From: a virus
Strand: one strand, 5' to 3'
Virus record (IMG/VR): IMGVR_UViG_3300046791_000074
Location: 1 to 53,327 of that record
Length of the DNA stretch: 53,327 bases
The position numbers were made by a program, and so were the translations under genes. A model generated the notes under the pieces. That model had not been told where the DNA came from. It saw only the letters and a program-made list of their open reading frames with translations, and ran no database searches. Shown in pieces: positions 30,312 to 39,089 of this stretch. Within the stretch, counting starts at the first letter, position 1; each line of letters begins with the position of its first letter.

Positions 30312-32549
30312 ATGGACTTGCTGTCGAGAGCTTCTGACGAAGCTCGTGAGGCATTCCTTCACGCTGCGTTCGGTACGAGTAGAGGTTACGTTGCGCTAGC
30401 GTTCCTCACACCAGACAAGTCGAACTTCTTCGAAGAGTACTTTATGTACCCAGGAGAGGTACCCGAACTCCTCATGGCTGTGAAGCAACGGTTCGCTTCG
30501 CACAACGTATACATCTGTCCGCAACTGTTCGCCAGTAAGCGAAGGAAAAAGGAAGAGGTCGTATCCACTCCTACAGCCTGGGCGGACTTGGACACTTGTC
30601 ATCCAGACAAGATGCTCCGCAAGCCCTCCCTGATCATCGAATCGTCCGCCAATAGATGGCAGGCCCTGTGGACTCTGGATAGCGTAGAAGCCGACGATGC
30701 AGAACGTATCTCCAAGCGCATCGCCTACTACCACGCCCCAGATGGTGCTGACCGCTCCGGTTGGGACCTAACGCAGTTGCTCCGCATGCCGCTGACGTAC
30801 AACTTCAAGTACAATGCGGTGCAGGGCGAACAGCAGATCGTCTACCTCCGAGAGTTCCACCGCAGCTCGTACCGCCTGAAAGACTTCGAGTGCTACCCAG
30901 CTCAGGCTGAGTCAGACGTAGACATCATCCCGATGCCTGAAGCAGCTGACCTTCCCGAGACAGCTGAAGAGCTCTTGCAGGCGAAGAGTCGAATGATGAA
31001 CCCCCGGATCTGGCAGCTATACAATACAGAGCCAGATGATGACTGGAGCAAGCCGCTCTGGGAACTTCACATGATGCTCTTCGAGGCAGGCTTCAACCGC
31101 GAAGAGTCGTACGTCATCGCACGTGAAGCGAAGTGTAACAAGTACGTACGGGATCAACGTTCACTCAGATTGCTGTGGAAGGAAGTACTCAGAGCTCATG
31201 CACGGGGTGAAGCTACTGCCGGACTCTTGGAAGTACCTCAAGGGCCTGAGCGCACTACCCTCCTCACTGAAGAGGAGCAAGACCAGGTACGACGTCAGCC
31301 AGAGTCTTTCGTCGAACGCTACATCACTTGGGCCCGGGGCCTGGGAGATGCTGCACACCAGTACCATCAAGCAGGTGCATTTATCATCCTGTCAACGTTG
31401 CTCTCAGGCAACGTTCGACTTCCTACCAGCTTCGGAACGTTCATCCCTAACCTCTGGTTCATGATCCTTGCAGACACAACGCTGACACGTAAGACGACGG
31501 CGATGGACATCGCCATGGATCTGATCGCCGACTTGGACAGCGATGCCATCCTAGCTACGGATGGTAGCATCGAGGGGCTCATGACCTCGTTGTCACTTCG
31601 GCCAGGACGTCCGAGCATCTTCCTTCGTGACGAGTTCTCCGGCCTGCTGGACTCCATGACCAAGAAGGACTACTACGCAGGCATGGCGGAGGTGTTCACA
31701 AAATTATACGACGGGAAGATGCAGAAGAGAGTCCTCCGCAAAGAGATCTTGGAGGTGCGCGATCCGCGGTTGATCTTGTTCGCTGGTGGCATCAAGAACA
31801 AGGTCACGGGTCTATTGACCTTCGAACAGGTCTCTTCGGGCTTTATGCCTCGCTTCATCTTCATCACAGCCGAGTCGGATGTGACGAAGCTCAAGCCGCT
31901 AGGGCCGCCAACAGATGGAACGCTCAACAACAGGCAGCTGATCCTGGACGAGATGGAGGACTTGCAAGCGCACTACCAGGTGATGACTACGACGACTCTG
32001 AAGAACGTCCCGGGGAGCAAGATCGAGATTCCTCAGATGTGGGACGCTCAGATGACCGACGCAGCATGGCTGAGGTACAACGAGTTGGAAGTCCGCATGT
32101 TGGAAGCTGGGACTGCGAGTGAGTTCCGAGCCGACGTCCTCACACCTACCTACGACCGACTCAGCAAGTCGATCCTTAAGGCAGCTGTTCTCTTGGCTGC
32201 CTCCCGTAGCAGAGCAGAGCAGATTGTTGTCGAACTCGATGATGTGCTTCGGGCTATCCATTACGGAGAGCAGTGGAAGATCCACGCCGATGATGTCATG
32301 GCTAACATCGGCAAGACTACCTACGAGCGACAGATCGTCAACATCCACAGAATGATCTGGCGTAAGCCGGGATGTAGTCGTTCGACAGTCATGCAGCATT
32401 ACCACCTCAATGCCAAAGTCACCACAGAGGTGTTTCAGACTATGGAGCAGCGCGGCCTCATGGTCATTAGACGGACAGGTAAGACAGAGCAGCTCTACCC
32501 CACACAGGTAGCCCCACCAGAGGAGTACAATGGAAACCAGCCAGCCTAG
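30312..32549 (+). CDS. primase-helicase, prim-pol plus DUF3987-like ATPase
   Basis: This 745-residue protein combines an N-terminal archaeo-eukaryotic-type primase domain (TAWADLD, about residue 93, and LIIESSANRWQALWTLD, about 111..127) with a helicase-like ATPase. The P-loop position reads ILADTTLTRKTTAMD (about 388..402), which is a degenerate Walker A with Arg before Lys-Thr. A Walker B-like SIFLRDEFSGLLD lies near 437. A C-terminal winged-helix-like domain (about 675..745) has CSRSTVMQHYHL. It would prime and unwind at the fork. It overlaps queC by 20 bases. Confidence 0.75.
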   Translation: MDLLSRASDEAREAFLHAAFGTSRGYVALAFLTPDKSNFFEEYFMYPGEVPELLMAVKQRFASHNVYICPQLFASKRRKKEEVVSTPTAWADLDTCHPDKMLRKPSLIIESSANRWQALWTLDSVEADDAERISKRIAYYHAPDGADRSGWDLTQLLRMPLTYNFKYNAVQGEQQIVYLREFHRSSYRLKDFECYPAQAESDVDIIPMPEAADLPETAEELLQAKSRMMNPRIWQLYNTEPDDDWSKPLWELHMMLFEAGFNREESYVIAREAKCNKYVRDQRSLRLLWKEVLRAHARGEATAGLLEVPQGPERTTLLTEEEQDQVRRQPESFVERYITWARGLGDAAHQYHQAGAFIILSTLLSGNVRLPTSFGTFIPNLWFMILADTTLTRKTTAMDIAMDLIADLDSDAILATDGSIEGLMTSLSLRPGRPSIFLRDEFSGLLDSMTKKDYYAGMAEVFTKLYDGKMQKRVLRKEILEVRDPRLILFAGGIKNKVTGLLTFEQVSSGFMPRFIFITAESDVTKLKPLGPPTDGTLNNRQLILDEMEDLQAHYQVMTTTTLKNVPGSKIEIPQMWDAQMTDAAWLRYNELEVRMLEAGTASEFRADVLTPTYDRLSKSILKAAVLLAASRSRAEQIVVELDDVLRAIHYGEQWKIHADDVMANIGKTTYERQIVNIHRMIWRKPGCSRSTVMQHYHLNAKVTTEVFQTMEQRGLMVIRRTGKTEQLYPTQVAPPEEYNGNQPA

Positions 32550-33336
32550 TGCAGTCGTCGTCTTCAGTGGCGGACTGGACAGTACGACCTGTGTGTACGA
32601 CGCGATCGACCAGGGCTACAAGGTCGACCTCGTCAGCTTCAACTACGGGCAGCGACACAAGAAGGAACTGGACTTTGCCAAAGCTACTGCAGTTCATCTC
32701 AATCTACGTCACGACGTGGTTGATCTGTCTGGCCTTACTCCTCTGCTGGCTGAGAGCGGTTCGTCGCTCGTCTCAGTCGAGGAGGTCCCGGAGGGGCATT
32801 ACGCTGAGGAGACGATGAAGGCTACGATCGTCCCGAACCGCAACATGATGATGCTGTCCATCGCGACGGCCATCGCCGTGAGTCGGAAGATCGAGTACGT
32901 CATCACCGGAGTACACTCGGGCGACCATGCCATCTACCCCGACTGCCGGCCGCAATTCATTGGTGCTGTCGACCAAGCAGCTCTCCTAGCCACCAATGGA
33001 TCGAACTTCTACGGCATCTTCGCTCCGTACGCTTCTCGGAGCAAGGCCGACATCGCACGACGTGCCATCATCCTCCGCGTCCCGTTGGAGAAGACCTGGA
33101 GCTGCTACAAGGGTGACGAGACCCACTGTGGTCGTTGCGGCACCTGCGTCGAGCGCCTCGAGGCCATCCACGAGGCTGTCCAGCAGCTCCGCAACGAGGG
33201 TAGTGGCTTCGTCATCGACGGTACGTACCAGGGCGAGACCCGCTACAAGCTGTACGAAGACCTCGACCCGACCGAGTACCAGGACTCCGAGTTCTGGATG
33301 AAGGCCATCGACGACGCTGCGAAGGAGGACAAGTGA
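32530..33336 (+). CDS. queC: 7-cyano-7-deazaguanine synthase QueC
   Basis: This 268-residue enzyme converts carboxy-deazaguanine to preQ0 using ATP and ammonia. The PP-loop SGGLDSTT is at about residues 14..21, and the Zn site is CYKGDETHCGRCGTC near 197..211. Length fits the family. It has no fused amidotransferase or other domain, so the expected product is plain preQ0. It overlaps the end of the helicase gene and shares GTGA with queD. Confidence 0.93.
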   Translation: METSQPSAVVVFSGGLDSTTCVYDAIDQGYKVDLVSFNYGQRHKKELDFAKATAVHLNLRHDVVDLSGLTPLLAESGSSLVSVEEVPEGHYAEETMKATIVPNRNMMMLSIATAIAVSRKIEYVITGVHSGDHAIYPDCRPQFIGAVDQAALLATNGSNFYGIFAPYASRSKADIARRAIILRVPLEKTWSCYKGDETHCGRCGTCVERLEAIHEAVQQLRNEGSGFVIDGTYQGETRYKLYEDLDPTEYQDSEFWMKAIDDAAKEDK

Positions 33337-33839
33337 CCGTCGACATCTATACCGTTTCCAAGGAGGTCGAGTTCGATGCCGGGCACCGAGTTCCGAATCA
33401 CAAGTCGAAGTGTCGTAATCCTCACGGCCATCGCTACCGCTTGCGAGTTACTATTACTGGCGAGCTGGTTACGGAGCCTGGTCGATCCGACGAGGGGATG
33501 CTTGCCGACTTCGGAGACCTGAAGACGATCATGACGACGCACGTCCACGACGTGCTGGACCACGGCTTCATCTACTACAAGGACGACCCTTGGGCAGTCA
33601 AAACCTTCCAGACCAAGATTGGTGCCTTCTGGGAAGGTGCTACGGAAGAGGAAGCTAAGGCTTCCTTGGAAGACTTCACCTTCAAGGCCATCAACGTCCC
33701 GTTCATCCCGACGGCAGAGAACCTAGCGCGTTGGTGCTGGGACCAGATGGTCGAGCCCGTGGAGCAGATGGGCTTCGGCCTCGTCCTCGTCGAACTCTGG
33801 GAGACTCCCACTTCACTGGCAACGTTCGCGAGGTACTGA
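33333..33839 (+). CDS. queD: 6-carboxy-tetrahydropterin synthase QueD
   Basis: This 168-residue enzyme converts dihydroneopterin triphosphate to carboxy-tetrahydropterin. It has the Zn-binding His residues in FDAGHRV (about 18) and HGHRYR (about 32..37), the catalytic Cys in KCRNPHGH (about 28), and the C-terminal LVELWETP Glu motif (about 152). The start GTG overlaps the queC stop. The next gene is coupled through TGATG. Confidence 0.92.
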   Translation: MTVDIYTVSKEVEFDAGHRVPNHKSKCRNPHGHRYRLRVTITGELVTEPGRSDEGMLADFGDLKTIMTTHVHDVLDHGFIYYKDDPWAVKTFQTKIGAFWEGATEEEAKASLEDFTFKAINVPFIPTAENLARWCWDQMVEPVEQMGFGLVLVELWETPTSLATFARY

Positions 33840-33988
33840 TGCAGACCATTTCCGGTAAGAAGGCAGAAGCTACCTCAGGGTGGCATCCCGTCGATCGAGC
33901 GAACTGCACCGAGAAGTTCCTCGGTAAGTTGGACAAGCGTCGCACCAAGAACAAGGCCGCGAAGAAGTCCAGGAAGAAGAATCGATGA
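33839..33988 (+). CDS. 49-residue very basic peptide in the que cassette
   Basis: The ATG at 33839 overlaps the queD stop (TGATG) and the end overlaps queE (ATGA). The C-terminal half is a Lys/Arg run. It may bind nucleic acid or be a small partner of the modification machinery. I know of no such component, so function is open. Confidence 0.55.
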   Translation: MQTISGKKAEATSGWHPVDRANCTEKFLGKLDKRRTKNKAAKKSRKKNR

Positions 33989-34704
33989 CAAAGATCCGTT
34001 CGTCTGAGGTCTACCTCAGCATTCAAGGTGAAGGTCCGAGGGTTGGCACTCCTACTGTTTTTGTCCGTAGTGCCGGGTGTAATCTGCGTTGCCCTGGTTG
34101 GGCTTGCGATACTCCTCATGCTATTGATCCGGCTCTGTATCGTCTGGATAGCAAGCTTCTTACCCCCACCGAGATCGCCCAACAGGTGGAGGTGGTTGCG
34201 CCGCATGGTGCGAACATCTGTTTCACAGGGGGTGAACCCTTCCTACAGAATCATGAAGCATTCCACGAGTTGGCTGATGGACTCGCCAAGCGAGGATACA
34301 TCATCCAGGAAGTCTTCACCAACGGAACCATAAGGTTCCCTGACTGGGTGTACGACTACATGTACGTCATCATGGACTGGAAGCTCTCCGGTGCTGGTGA
34401 GGAAGTTAACATCTTCGGCACCGAAGGTGTTCAGTCGATTCGCCTCCGCAATGTCGAACGGATGTCCGAGGGTGACGTGGTCAAGTTCACCATCGCATCC
34501 AAGTCAGACTACGAAGAAGCCAAGCAATGGTACACCGAGCTTGCCAAGCTCAACGCCGGTATCGACTTCATCTACGGAGTCGTCTGGGGGAAGCTCGAGG
34601 CGAAGGACCTGATCGGATGGGTCCTTCGTGATAGTCTGGTCGAGTGGACGTACAGTCATCAATTGCACAACGTCATTTGGGATAGGGAGAAGCGTGCCAT
34701 CTGA
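33985..34704 (+). CDS. queE: 7-carboxy-7-deazaguanine synthase QueE, unusual Cys motif
   Basis: This 239-residue radical-SAM enzyme makes 7-carboxy-7-deazaguanine. The N-terminal SIQGEGPRVGTP and FTGGEP motifs are typical. The Fe-S Cys motif reads GCNLRCPGWACDT (residues 31..43), that is C-x3-C-x4-C, where most family members have C-x3-C-x2-C. It is therefore a variant loop. Length fits a compact QueE. It overlaps the folE start by 11 bases. Confidence 0.92.
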   Translation: MTKIRSSEVYLSIQGEGPRVGTPTVFVRSAGCNLRCPGWACDTPHAIDPALYRLDSKLLTPTEIAQQVEVVAPHGANICFTGGEPFLQNHEAFHELADGLAKRGYIIQEVFTNGTIRFPDWVYDYMYVIMDWKLSGAGEEVNIFGTEGVQSIRLRNVERMSEGDVVKFTIASKSDYEEAKQWYTELAKLNAGIDFIYGVVWGKLEAKDLIGWVLRDSLVEWTYSHQLHNVIWDREKRAI

Positions 34705-35338
34705 ATCGGAATTCCTGGGTAATGCTAAGCCCTTCATCGAGAATGGTCTGCTCTTTACCAGGAAGCGCAAGACGGACTTCGAGCCCGTCGCCTTCCGTAC
34801 ACACGAGGACGTCGCACGAGAGTTCCTGTCCTTGTTGGACGGCTGGGCAGAGGTCGACGAAGACCACAGGAAGGAGACGCCCGGCCGTATGCTGAAGATG
34901 TTCCAGCAGATGACAACCAGGGAGGAGTTCAACTTCACGACCTTCCCGGCGAAGAATCAGGACATGATCACCCTGGGACCGATTCCGTTCTACACCATGT
35001 GCGCACATCACACAGCTCCGTTCTTCGGCAATGCCTACATCGGTTACGTTCCTGGTGCCTCGATCGCAGGCCTGTCCAAGTTCGTTCGTGCAGTCCAGTA
35101 CTGTGCGAAGGGGTTCCACGTGCAGGAGGATCTGACGCATGACATCTCCAAGTACCTCGAAGATCGGTTGGCTCCGAAAGGTGTGGCTGTGGTGCTCCGG
35201 GCCGAACACCTCTGCATGGCAATGCGAGGAGTGCAACAGCCGGGAGTCGTCACAACCACGTCAGCCATGACTGGCGTGTTCGGAGATCACAGTCGAACTG
35301 CCAAGGCGGAGTTCATGAACATCATCGGAGGTAACTGA
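34694..35338 (+). CDS. folE: GTP cyclohydrolase I
   Basis: This 214-residue enzyme makes dihydroneopterin triphosphate from GTP, the first step towards preQ0. The Zn/active-site MCAHHTAPFFGNAYIGY is at about residues 96..112, followed by GLSKFVRAVQYCAK and AEHLCMAMRG. The start GTG 34694 has a GGGAGA box and lies within the end of queE. It closes the precursor set; pyrophosphohydrolase-like genes follow. Confidence 0.93.
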   Translation: MPSESEFLGNAKPFIENGLLFTRKRKTDFEPVAFRTHEDVAREFLSLLDGWAEVDEDHRKETPGRMLKMFQQMTTREEFNFTTFPAKNQDMITLGPIPFYTMCAHHTAPFFGNAYIGYVPGASIAGLSKFVRAVQYCAKGFHVQEDLTHDISKYLEDRLAPKGVAVVLRAEHLCMAMRGVQQPGVVTTTSAMTGVFGDHSRTAKAEFMNIIGGN

Positions 35339-35652
35339 TGTCGCGTATGGCAATCATGGCCGCAGAGGCCGACGGGGACAGTAGGCGCTGGTTCCCTGAG
35401 ACGGCGACCGATCTCTTCTTCATCACCGCTTGCATGTCGGGTGAAGCTGGTGAAGCGGTCAACAAGTTGAAGAAGGCTAAGCGCGCCGGACGCAACATGA
35501 CTCCGGTCGAGAAGCACGAGTTCGTCATGGAGCTGGTCGACACTCTGACGTACCTGCTCGATGCGTTCGCTCTTGTCGGAGCGGACCCGGAGAAGGCCTA
35601 TTACCAGAAGCGCCTGGAGAACGAGCAGCGCTTCGGAAAGAAGGGTGCATGA
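35338..35652 (+). CDS. MazG-like nucleotide pyrophosphohydrolase
   Basis: This 104-residue all-alpha protein has the MazG-type pattern CMSGEAGEAVNKLKKA (about residues 32..47) and a second helix ELVDTLTYLLDAF (about 65..77), which supply the metal-binding Glu/Asp residues. It would cleave an NTP or dNTP. Its place within the deazaguanine cassette suggests it shapes the dG or GTP pool. Coupled to folE by TGATG. Confidence 0.78.
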   Translation: MSRMAIMAAEADGDSRRWFPETATDLFFITACMSGEAGEAVNKLKKAKRAGRNMTPVEKHEFVMELVDTLTYLLDAFALVGADPEKAYYQKRLENEQRFGKKGA

Positions 35653-35954
35653 ACGAGACTGTAGATCCGGCAGAGCTTATCAATGAGCTGTCAGTCGAGT
35701 TCGACGTGCAGACGTTGGAACGGCACCAGGTCGGTCAGGAAAAGTACGGAGCGTTCAGCTTCCTGGGCAAGGACATGTTCCAGGAAGCTATGAACGAGAT
35801 CCTCGACATGGCTAACTACGCCCGCTACCAGTACATCAAGCTGCGCATGCTACAGATGTTCATCGCAGCCGATCCTCGCGTTGCCGGCCTTGCCGACGAC
35901 GAGGGCAACATCACCATCGGTGCGGAGAGCTTCAAGGCTGGAGGCCTCGGATGA
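35649..35954 (+). CDS. second MazG-like/dNTP pyrophosphohydrolase
   Basis: This 101-residue helical protein has RHQVGQEKYGAFSF (about residues 25..38) and EAMNEILDMANYARYQ (about 46..61), a pattern like small phage dATP/dGTP diphosphohydrolases of the MazG group. It overlaps both neighbours by four bases. It may act with the first pyrophosphohydrolase on nucleotide pools. Less certain than the first. Confidence 0.6.
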   Translation: MNETVDPAELINELSVEFDVQTLERHQVGQEKYGAFSFLGKDMFQEAMNEILDMANYARYQYIKLRMLQMFIAADPRVAGLADDEGNITIGAESFKAGGLG

Positions 35955-36739
35955 CGAAGATGATCTTCATTCCGCCATTCGCAATGTTGGACTCGACGCT
36001 GAACTCGTATCGGCATCTGATGCTCCCGCATCTGCTGACACACCAGGTGTACTCCAACCACTTCAAGAGGGTGAAGGGGCTGGGTCAGTACATCATCCTG
36101 GACAACGGTGCAGCCGAGGGTGTCAAGGTTACGGGTCGGCAGCTCGTCGACACCTGCTACGACTACAAGGTCGACGAGCTTGTCCTACCCGACGTAATGG
36201 GTAGCAGCGATGCTACCTACGACGTAGCTACCGACTTCCTGACGGACTACCGCAACAGACTCCCGGTATCGACGCGACTGGGCTACGTGCTCCAGGGCCG
36301 TACCGTGACGGAAGCGGTAGACACATACCACAGGGTGCGCGGCAATACTCGGTTGCTGGCGAAGATCAACGTCTGGTATCTGCCGAGGTTGTTGGTGACT
36401 CCGGAGAATCCAGACGCACGGATCGATGTCGCGGAGTACATCCTGGACCTAGAAGGTAAGCTACCCAAGCCGATCCACTTCCTTGGTGCAGCTCCGACCT
36501 TCATCAGTGAGATCGCCACCGTGCGAGATCGTCATCTGCGAATCCGGAGCATGGACACATCTGCTCCGTTCGTGTACGCATTCGCTGGAAGGTTCATCGC
36601 GGAGGAAGGTGTGCAGCGTCGAGACCAGGAGAAGTACTTCACTTCCCTGGTCGACAACACGACGCGAGCTTTGGCCATGCGCAACTGCTCGGTGATGGAA
36701 GGCTGGGCTGGTGCGCAAACACCCACTAGCGAAGTGTGA
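35951..36739 (+). CDS. dpdA: DpdA-like DNA guanine transglycosylase
   Basis: This 262-residue protein resembles phage DpdA, a TGT-like enzyme that swaps guanine for preQ0 in DNA. It has a TIM-barrel pattern with IILDNGAAEG (about 49..58, a likely catalytic Asp), LVLPDVMG (about 76..83, second Asp) and the HFLGA segment (about 176). It is shorter than tRNA TGTs and lacks their C-terminal Zn domain, as expected for phage DpdA. It is the last gene of the cassette and overlaps the polymerase gene by 29 bases. Confidence 0.85.
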   Translation: MTKMIFIPPFAMLDSTLNSYRHLMLPHLLTHQVYSNHFKRVKGLGQYIILDNGAAEGVKVTGRQLVDTCYDYKVDELVLPDVMGSSDATYDVATDFLTDYRNRLPVSTRLGYVLQGRTVTEAVDTYHRVRGNTRLLAKINVWYLPRLLVTPENPDARIDVAEYILDLEGKLPKPIHFLGAAPTFISEIATVRDRHLRIRSMDTSAPFVYAFAGRFIAEEGVQRRDQEKYFTSLVDNTTRALAMRNCSVMEGWAGAQTPTSEV

Positions 36740-39089
36740 GGAGTGCCCTCTTGCGGCCGTCGGTAAGTTCGTTCCGTCGGAGATTCCTGCAGCAGGAGCT
36801 AAGCTCGCATTCGTCGGGGAAGCACCGGGGCTCCAGGAAGCTCGGACGGGGAAGCCATTCATGGGTCCCTCTGGCGAGCTTCTTAATCGTGTTATGCGTC
36901 ATCATCGTATCAAACGTAGGGAGGTGCTTCTAACCAATGCGTGCCTTTGTCGCCCGCCTGATAACGCGACACCTGCAGCGAGTGCTGTCAAGGCGTGTTC
37001 AGAACGTCTCGTGGGCGAGCTGGAGCTCGCGGGGGTCAGCACAGTGGTGGCACTCGGTAACACTGCGGCTCAAGCACTTACCGGTCGAACTGGTGTTACG
37101 AAGCTCCGTGTCGGGTCCGGAATCCCATCGAATTTCGATCCGAATCTACGTGTCGTCTCAACGCTCCATCCCGCGTACTGTTTGCGAAACGCTGATGGAT
37201 TCCCATCCCTTGTCGTCGATGTCGGAAAGGCAGTAAACCCAGGTGTTGTCTTCACCCCTCCGGTGTACCGAGTTGTCGAGTCTAGCGTTGACGCTATCAG
37301 GGTCATCCGAGGACTTCTACTCGGATCAGGCCCAGTCGTTGTCGACATTGAAAGCGACGTTGAGAAGGATGTCGGCTTCGGACACCCTAACCAGCATACT
37401 CTGCTCTGTGTGGGGATCACTGCAAGAGGACGAGTCCGCTACGTACTCGCTGACAGTGCACTCACACCAAGAGTCTGGGCAGCACTCCGTATCCTATTCC
37501 TTCGAAGGGGTGCATCAGCTCAGAACGGAAAGTTCGACCTCGCAGGACTCTACCGCTTCATCGGGGCCGTACGTCTAAAGTTCGATACGCTGCTAGCGTC
37601 CTACGCGTGTGACGAGCGTCCAGGCATTCACGGCCTAAAAGTTCAGGCCCAGGAGTATCTGGGCGCTCCGCCCTACGATGATGAGGTAAAGAAGTATGTC
37701 GGTCCGGGTGAAGGTTACGGCAAAATCCCGAGACATATTCTATACCAGTACAACGCGTACGACATTCATTGCACGGATCTCTTGCAGGAGATGTACGAGC
37801 GGAGGTTTAGTAACGACCCGGACGCTAAGAGACTACACGATTTTCTCTTGGCAGCATCCGAGCAACTCATGTTCGTCGAGCTCAATGGTATGGCAGTGGA
37901 CCTGGAATACCTGAAGGTACTCGAGAAGCGGTTCTTTGCCAGCCTCGCAGTCCTGGAGCTAGAGCTTGACGACCAACTGAAGAGCAACCCCAAAGTCCCT
38001 GTGGACTTTGTCAACCCAAGGTCGCCGCAGCAGGTCAAGCGAGTACTACATTCGTTGGGTGCTAAGGTTACTACTACGAACAAGGAGATGCTCTGGAAGC
38101 TACAGGATCATTGTAAGGACCTAGCTGTCGCCAAAGGCTTCGAGGGTCCGGAGGTCTTCCCGATATACAACTTCGTGACGACTCTTCTGGATCACCGGAA
38201 GGAAGCGAAGCTCTATGGAACGTACGTCAAAGGTATTCGGAAGCGACTGTACCGTGGACGGGTGTACCCGACATTCCTTATCCATGGAACTACTTCCGGA
38301 CGGCTCTCTAGTCGGAACCCTAACATGCAGAACATCGTTCGAGGTAGCGACATTCGAAATATGTTCGTCCCAGCTAAAGCCGGAAACGTCTTCGTACAAT
38401 CAGACTACAGTCAAGCTGAACTGCGTGTGCTCACCTGGCTCGCTTCCTGTATCTATTTCCGCGACATCTTCAACGCTGGTGATATTGATCTATTCGACGA
38501 GCTCACACCGGTGCTCTACCCGAAACTTCCACCTAAGCACCTTGTACATCCGGGAGAGTGGAAGGAGATCCGTATTCGTGTCAAGGCTTTCGTTTACGGG
38601 TTGGGTTACGGTCGCGGAGAAGGATCCATCGCGGAAGAGTTCAAGATCCCGTACAGCGAGGCACTTACTCTCAAGCGTAACTTCTTCTCGGTCATCCCGG
38701 AGATCGTCAGCTGGCAGCGTGAGATTCAGGAAGCAGTCTTCTCGGGAGAAGACCTCAAGACACCGTTTGGACGGACCCGCCGCTTCGGACTGATCACGGA
38801 TCAGAACCGACACGAGATCGAGAAGGAGTGCCTTGCCTTCAAACCACAATCCATCTCCTCAGACATCTGTCTGGGAGCAATGGTCACACTACGCCGCGAG
38901 CTCAAGGGTATGGCCTGGATACGGAACATCGTACACGACTCCATCCTGGCTGAGTGCGCTCGAGAAGACGCTGAACGAGTCGGATCGCTTATGGATCGAC
39001 GCATGGTGGAATCCGCCCGCAACACTGTCGGAGACTACGTTATCTTTGCTACAGACAGCAAGGTCGGAAACAACTGGGGAGAGGTCTGA
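36711..39089 (+). CDS. uracil-DNA glycosylase/DNA polymerase I fusion
   Basis: This 792-residue fusion has an N-terminal family 4-type uracil-DNA glycosylase domain (about 1..170). Visible features are the Fe-S Cys set C9, C12, C80 and C96, GEAPG at 36..40 and LHPA at 152..155. The 3'-5' exonuclease follows with VVDIES (about 205) and YNAYDIHCTD (about 347). The polymerase has motif A QSDYSQAELRV (about 562), motif B RVKAFVYGLGYG (about 624) with Tyr at the Phe762-equivalent place, and motif C HDSI (about 743). It would replicate the phage and check templates. It starts with GTG inside dpdA. Confidence 0.88.
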   Translation: MRKHPLAKCEECPLAAVGKFVPSEIPAAGAKLAFVGEAPGLQEARTGKPFMGPSGELLNRVMRHHRIKRREVLLTNACLCRPPDNATPAASAVKACSERLVGELELAGVSTVVALGNTAAQALTGRTGVTKLRVGSGIPSNFDPNLRVVSTLHPAYCLRNADGFPSLVVDVGKAVNPGVVFTPPVYRVVESSVDAIRVIRGLLLGSGPVVVDIESDVEKDVGFGHPNQHTLLCVGITARGRVRYVLADSALTPRVWAALRILFLRRGASAQNGKFDLAGLYRFIGAVRLKFDTLLASYACDERPGIHGLKVQAQEYLGAPPYDDEVKKYVGPGEGYGKIPRHILYQYNAYDIHCTDLLQEMYERRFSNDPDAKRLHDFLLAASEQLMFVELNGMAVDLEYLKVLEKRFFASLAVLELELDDQLKSNPKVPVDFVNPRSPQQVKRVLHSLGAKVTTTNKEMLWKLQDHCKDLAVAKGFEGPEVFPIYNFVTTLLDHRKEAKLYGTYVKGIRKRLYRGRVYPTFLIHGTTSGRLSSRNPNMQNIVRGSDIRNMFVPAKAGNVFVQSDYSQAELRVLTWLASCIYFRDIFNAGDIDLFDELTPVLYPKLPPKHLVHPGEWKEIRIRVKAFVYGLGYGRGEGSIAEEFKIPYSEALTLKRNFFSVIPEIVSWQREIQEAVFSGEDLKTPFGRTRRFGLITDQNRHEIEKECLAFKPQSISSDICLGAMVTLRRELKGMAWIRNIVHDSILAECAREDAERVGSLMDRRMVESARNTVGDYVIFATDSKVGNNWGEV

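Follow-up and report, generated by a model that had tools for sequence, protein, structure and literature searches.

Bacteriophages that carry 7-deazaguanines in their DNA are the closest described counterparts of the locus considered here. The nucleoside 2'-deoxy-7-cyano-7-deazaguanosine (dPreQ0), which bears the base 7-cyano-7-deazaguanine (preQ0), replaces ~32% of the Gs in phage CAjan and ~28% in phage Rosebush (PMC6884629), and all deoxyguanosine (dG) is reported to be replaced in the group of Campylobacter phage CP220 (PMC10273834). We analyzed the uncultured virus record IMGVR_UViG_3300046791_000074, here called the window and meaning its whole length of 53,327 bases, in which queC, queD, queE, folE, a MazG-type gene, a further small gene and dpdA lie on the plus strand, packed into positions 32530-36739, with neighbours that overlap or nearly abut. 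This operon very probably encodes a complete route from GTP to preQ0 together with a DNA-guanine transglycosylase; the first-pass annotation of the same DNA had proposed such a cassette, and the family scores, motifs, profile comparisons and predicted fold described below agree with it.

All four pathway enzymes were recognized by family matches and motifs. QueC (7-cyano-7-deazaguanine synthase, 32530-33336) matches PF06508 with 207 bits and TIGR00364 with 197.5 bits (cut-off 150.3). The canonical motifs of this enzyme are SGGxDS, YxQxHxxE, VPxRN, YPDC and a four-Cys zinc motif (PMC13329287), and all of them are present, as SGGLDS, YGQRHKKE, VPNRN, YPDC and a Cys cluster, C(x)7CxxCxxC, that is one residue shorter than the canonical one. 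QueD (6-carboxytetrahydropterin synthase, 33333-33839) matches PTPS with 116 bits and TIGR03367 with 92.6 bits (cut-off 89.25), and FolE (GTP cyclohydrolase I, 34694-35338; frame open from 34628, homologous part from ~34814) matches PF01227 with 164 bits. Both keep their metal and catalytic motifs, CRNPHGH in QueD and CAHH and HLCMAMRG in FolE. QueE (7-carboxy-7-deazaguanine synthase, 33985-34704) was assigned through phrog_2076 (E 2e-31), its NCBIfam scores being below the cut-offs. The radical S-adenosylmethionine cluster motif of this protein, CNLRCPGWAC, has the spacing CX3CX4C as opposed to CX3CX2C in other phage QueE proteins; the variant is common to at least 17 loci, the window included, and other loci with dpdA show further variants.

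The 262-residue protein encoded at 35951-36739 on the plus strand has no Pfam or NCBIfam match, so that its identity as a transglycosylase had to come from profile and fold comparisons. A weak match to phrog_20335, labelled 'unknown', was the only one among PHROGs, a single-sequence search against GenBank phages gave no match, and a profile of three sequences from viral contigs found nothing in the Protein Data Bank (PDB). The same profile led to 72 loci, and 65 sequences were used for conservation analysis and a family profile, for which bacterial DpdA (7ui4, E 3.3e-5) is the single significant structure in the PDB. The family also matches a DpdA1 profile built from phages 9g, CAjan, Funsized, Sonali and Finch (E 1.9e-6), with the motif pairs LDNGA/LDSGAF, PDVMG/LDGIG, IHFLG/VHGFG and RSMDTS/YSCDSSS in register. 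Across the 65 sequences, conservation is at least 90% at D51, N52, A54, E56, P80, D81, T89, G116 and D202 and complete at G53, H176 and G179. The catalytic Asp positions D51, D81 and D202, noted in the window protein together with Q115 and H176, are in register with the DpdA1 motifs and, judging from motif order, presumably correspond to Asp102, Asp156 and Asp280 of the Z. mobilis tRNA-guanine transglycosylase (TGT). Both the DpdA profile match and the catalytic Asp residues anticipated by the first-pass annotation were thus found. With an AlphaFold model (pLDDT 95.5), plain Foldseek retrieved generic TIM barrels only from the PDB (E near 1e-4); when this list was realigned, TGTs took each of the top 50 places, with Z of 16.0-16.5 across 230-235 residues, and a preQ0 complex was among them. 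On the modelled fold, the protein is a real TGT-fold, DpdA-like enzyme.

The His at position 196 of the 9g enzyme is missing from DpdA2 (PMC6884629). Its counterpart in the window family is the invariant H176, and there is no cross-match to DpdA2 of the nt-1 type; this membership was ruled out, as was membership in DpdA1, given that neither phrog_887 nor phrog_7068 is matched. The enzyme is therefore DpdA-like and belongs to neither DpdA1 nor DpdA2. With other family members as queries, the family was recovered from Campylobacter Firehammervirus CP220 (E 6e-20) and from four further phages, BSP7 of Bacillus, Youna2 of Weizmannia, MA9V-3 of Chryseobacterium and phiST of Cellulophaga, in all of which the protein is annotated as hypothetical; in the Flavobacterium immuto phages a member is annotated as DNA guanine transglycosylase. 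The best viral structure match is the phiST protein (TM 0.81, identity 20%). The window enzyme thus falls in the sequence family of the CP220 and phiST enzymes, which we take to be of the DpdA3 type, the subfamily that, according to what Cui et al. reportedly wrote in NAR (Nucleic Acids Research) in 2023, permits complete guanine replacement. In the tree the window lies in a clade of uncultured contigs, and the adjoining clade contains BSP7 and Youna2. No confirmed relative was found in the bacterial genomes scanned for a dpdA-like gene. Three oddities were seen among the dpdA-like genes: a tandem pair (L044:7959-9433); one in-frame TGA in the dpdA-like gene of each of the records behind L238 and L277 (G011, G021), reflecting decay, sequencing error or recoding; and, in Arthrobacter phage Sonali, a second gene annotated DpdA-like beside its DpdA1 (L005:2086-2703, MK411746 gp81, phrog_15826).

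The extent of the exchange was approached through palindromic hexamers, which are compared here as observed/expected ratios against an order-4 Markov expectation; the test was exploratory, having begun as a side test with controls added after the first result. Such palindromes are hardly avoided by carriers of the window-type enzyme (0.951 in the window, 0.990 in its nearest relative, 0.934 in CP220, 0.918 in phiST, 0.909 in Youna2, 1.013 in BSP7 and 0.900 in MA9V-3). Avoidance is evident in CAjan (0.740), 9g (0.736), nt-1 (0.801), Sonali (0.555), Dp-1 (0.798), Funsized (0.287), Finch (0.508) and 7-11 (0.761), and also in three actinophages without the genes (0.51-0.70); Cellulophaga phage phi10:1, with no known pathway, has a ratio of 0.824. 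Among uncultured loci the medians are 0.923 for 49 carriers versus 0.745 for 66 DpdA1 carriers (p 2e-15). The two groups do not differ in G-free palindromes (0.911 versus 0.879, p 0.18) and differ in those with one, two and three Gs (0.918/0.777, 0.920/0.652 and 0.937/0.703; p 3e-9, 5e-16 and 2e-5). The difference persists in each GC band; tetranucleotide palindromes give little contrast. This G-specific contrast fits protection at every G-containing site. Because the enzyme falls in the branch of CP220 and phiST, and because carriers have lost the selection against G-containing palindromes, near-complete replacement is to be expected, and on these sequence grounds we consider it probable that G is replaced almost completely and irrespective of sequence context, rather than as a share of dG.

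Several points weigh against this conclusion. The loci used in the palindrome test are mutually related and their hosts differ, and the two long records that have a related terminase but no dpdA-like gene give opposite results, with avoidance in one (0.76) and none in the other (0.99). The step from enzyme branch to complete replacement would lean in part on what the DpdA3 paper reportedly states, and CP220's group, in the work of Crippen et al. from 2019, is said to carry dADG, the deoxynucleoside of 7-amido-7-deazaguanine (ADG), and not dPreQ0, so that the base may differ here. The other part of that step comes from CP220's group by analogy (PMC10273834). Missing avoidance could come from hosts without type II enzymes. 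We judge it unlikely that it stems merely from restriction-poor hosts, or from some other defence of the phages against restriction, and carries no information on the extent of replacement: the terminase relative at 0.99 (L214) would be accounted for in this way, yet the pattern recurs in Campylobacter, Bacillus, Weizmannia, Cellulophaga and Chryseobacterium phages that carry the enzyme, and among uncultured loci the contrast is confined to palindromes that contain G. We hold equally doubtful a partial exchange, with dPreQ0 at about a third of the Gs and at preferred motifs, which is how we read the expectation of the first-pass annotation that a share of dG is replaced. The pathway gene content and the queC-queD-queE-folE order are those of DpdA1 actinophages, and CAjan and Rosebush do stand at 28-32% dPreQ0 (PMC6884629), but the expectation derives from DpdA1 phages, and the window has a transglycosylase of another kind, in the CP220 branch and with no match to the DpdA1 PHROGs, and its fellow carriers do not share the palindrome avoidance of those phages; the genome statistics fit protection of all Gs.

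With regard to the base, QueF and glutamine amidotransferases of two classes were not detected in the record, which is possibly incomplete, while control genomes were positive; the earlier statement that no enzyme altering preQ0 further is seen agrees with this. A canonical QueC has preQ0 as its expected product, and preQ0 is most likely the inserted base. ADG is a possible alternative, and the base may be altered by a modifying enzyme that was not recognized. A final base that is the amide or a mix, with QueC releasing ADG or another enzyme hydrating preQ0, seems rather improbable to us. It would accord with the dADG said to occur in the group of the cultured relative CP220, which has a QueC. 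Replacement in that group is stated to be complete (PMC10273834), and ADG is an intermediate of QueC (PMC13329287). The QueC of CP220 (L093:3967-4626; FN667788 100966-101625), however, has no YxQxHxxE and FPDC in place of YPDC, an alteration that may cause an amide rather than a nitrile product there, whereas the window QueC has all canonical motifs; moreover, dPreQ0 is the nucleoside in Rosebush and in CAjan, and the CAjan QueC agrees with the canonical form in four of five motifs tested. Finally, the TGT fold and conserved TGT motifs would also suit an enzyme acting on tRNA in a queuosine-like modification of the host, leaving the DNA unmodified. This we regard as very improbable: the sole significant sequence match to a solved structure is the DNA enzyme DpdA and not a tRNA TGT, dpdA overlaps or nearly abuts the DNA polymerase gene in many loci, and homologues are present in phages with modified DNA.

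The organization of the locus is a property of its lineage. Sixty-six non-redundant uncultured loci were fetched through the dpdA-like gene alone, and the exact order primase-queC-queD-queE-folE-MazG-small gene-dpdA-polymerase occurs in 18 of them. With the primase and polymerase included, such an arrangement is far beyond chance. Sufficient flanking DNA was available for 42 loci, which contain at least one preQ0 gene in 40 cases, all four in 26, the polymerase in 37, the MazG gene in 20 and the small gene in 17. The dpdA-like gene is also present in 15 of the 20 long records that share the window's terminase, so the gene order is a trait of the whole lineage and not peculiar to this phage. 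Upstream, a primase gene (30312-32549, plus strand, phrog_10514) overlaps queC and is a constant neighbour within the lineage. Downstream, a uracil-DNA glycosylase domain fused to a family A DNA polymerase (36711-39089, plus strand, assigned by Pfam) is encoded by a gene that overlaps dpdA by 29 bases. The remaining genes of the record have only structural and replication functions assigned, no DNA methyltransferase is among their Pfam matches, and the terminase is closest to those of Microbacterium phages (36%).

Variants of the locus were noted as well. Two consecutive polymerase genes follow dpdA in the distant loci L065, L066, L069 and L070. Nine loci (L042, L055, L059, L063, L064, L068, L073, L075 and L078) have dpdA and folE, mostly with queE, and, as in phiST, no queC was found in their stretches; they may insert 7-carboxy-7-deazaguanine (CDG) or decarboxylated CDG. 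Extra genes between queC and queD in L003 (3887-5328), with relatives in L035 and L029, include one without a Pfam match and one matching only phrog_5935 (unknown), and are candidates for further tailoring of the base. In L015 (4498-5142), L039, L040 and L057 the preQ0 genes are preceded or interrupted by a gene whose product, on visual inspection, looks like a member of the DJ-1/PfpI class; in L015 it lies between queC and queD.

The two small plus-strand genes ahead of dpdA had both been described as MazG-like, and the description holds for one of them. For the protein encoded at 35338-35652, the best structures retrieved with the family profile are MazG-like and dCTPP1 proteins (E 4.5e-11 and 1.5e-10). 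Pfam MazG recognizes 19 of the 29 members, and the ExxE and ExxD motifs, made up of E33, E36, E62 and D65 (numbered in the 101-residue form), are invariant in 29 relatives, which supports its prediction as a MazG-type all-alpha nucleoside triphosphate pyrophosphohydrolase. A MazG gene lies between folE and dpdA also in phiST, and one annotated as pyrophosphohydrolase occupies this place in the immuto phages. For the second gene (35649-35954, phrog_11184) a MazG relationship could not be shown by profile, fold or motif: the protein has no Pfam and no significant PDB match, it retains an ExxD helix only, its profile match to the first protein is unconvincing (5%), and its model consists of two long helices without a fold match. 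The gene for this small conserved helical protein adjoins dpdA in its lineage, and in the distant loci L050, L065 and L077 the position ahead of dpdA is taken by small genes with weak similarity to it, so that a role as DpdA partner is a fair guess.

From the genes, motifs, fold, family, conserved order and genome statistics we infer a self-sufficient DNA-modification operon with near-complete preQ0 exchange, which is on balance the best explanation as a whole. FolE would convert GTP to dihydroneopterin triphosphate, QueD would form carboxytetrahydropterin, QueE would form CDG, and QueC would amidate and dehydrate CDG via ADG to preQ0. DpdA would then act on phage DNA that is already polymerised, excising guanine while the sugar stays bound to an Asp, which the alignment places at D202, and inserting preQ0, most likely independently of sequence and nearly to completion. 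Control of (deoxy)nucleotide pools is the probable role of the MazG-type enzyme, and the modified template would be copied by the polymerase, which is translated together with dpdA. A broader proposal, of a widespread, mostly uncultured lineage with essentially all G present as preQ0 and a dedicated, co-made module of MazG, small helical partner, DpdA and glycosylase-polymerase that leaves its mark as lost selection on G-palindromes, is tentative and somewhat unlikely to hold in all its parts.

The interest of this system lies in its enzyme branch, conserved replication module and sequence signature and not in gene order itself. With the transglycosylase labelled 'unknown' in annotation libraries, a large phage group with probably guanine-free DNA would have been overlooked. 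The palindrome statistic provides a means of separating complete from partial G modification by sequence alone, which gene content does not. If complete preQ0 replacement is true, it is relevant to the handling of fully modified DNA by a polymerase and a packaging machine, and to the question of which methods based on sequencing or restriction miss such phages. BSP7, whose host is B. subtilis, and Youna2 are cultured carriers open to test.

CAjan and Mycobacterium phage Rosebush (Group 2 dPreQ0, DpdA1) share with the window FolE, QueD, QueE, QueC and a TGT-like DNA enzyme, with no amidotransferase (PMC6884629), but their transglycosylase is of the other branch, 28-32% of their Gs are modified, and palindrome avoidance is strong in CAjan. 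Related sets in actinophages, mentioned in the first-pass annotation, are confirmed by Funsized, Sonali and Finch, which have queC-queD-queE-folE in the order of the window, although their dpdA is of the DpdA1 kind and lies ahead of queC, and the set has no MazG gene. DpdA2 of Vibrio phage nt-1 is likewise TGT-like and encoded beside preQ0 genes, but is without the 9g His 196 (PMC6884629) that the window family keeps as H176, and the two do not cross-match. CP220 (CPT_0056) and phiST (CGPG_00065) have a homologous transglycosylase and QueE/FolE-type genes, and phiST has MazG between folE and dpdA, as in the window; in contrast, phiST has no queC and its enzyme shows low identity to that of the window (20%, from the structure match), CP220 has an altered QueC and modification genes that do not lie together, and neither phage has the primase-to-polymerase operon. 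In BSP7 and Youna2 neither the MazG-type gene nor the second small gene was detected between folE and dpdA, and dpdA (BSP7_057 in BSP7) is annotated only as hypothetical; their primase, queC, queD, queE, folE, dpdA and polymerase genes nonetheless follow the order of the window, with dpdA overlapping polA.

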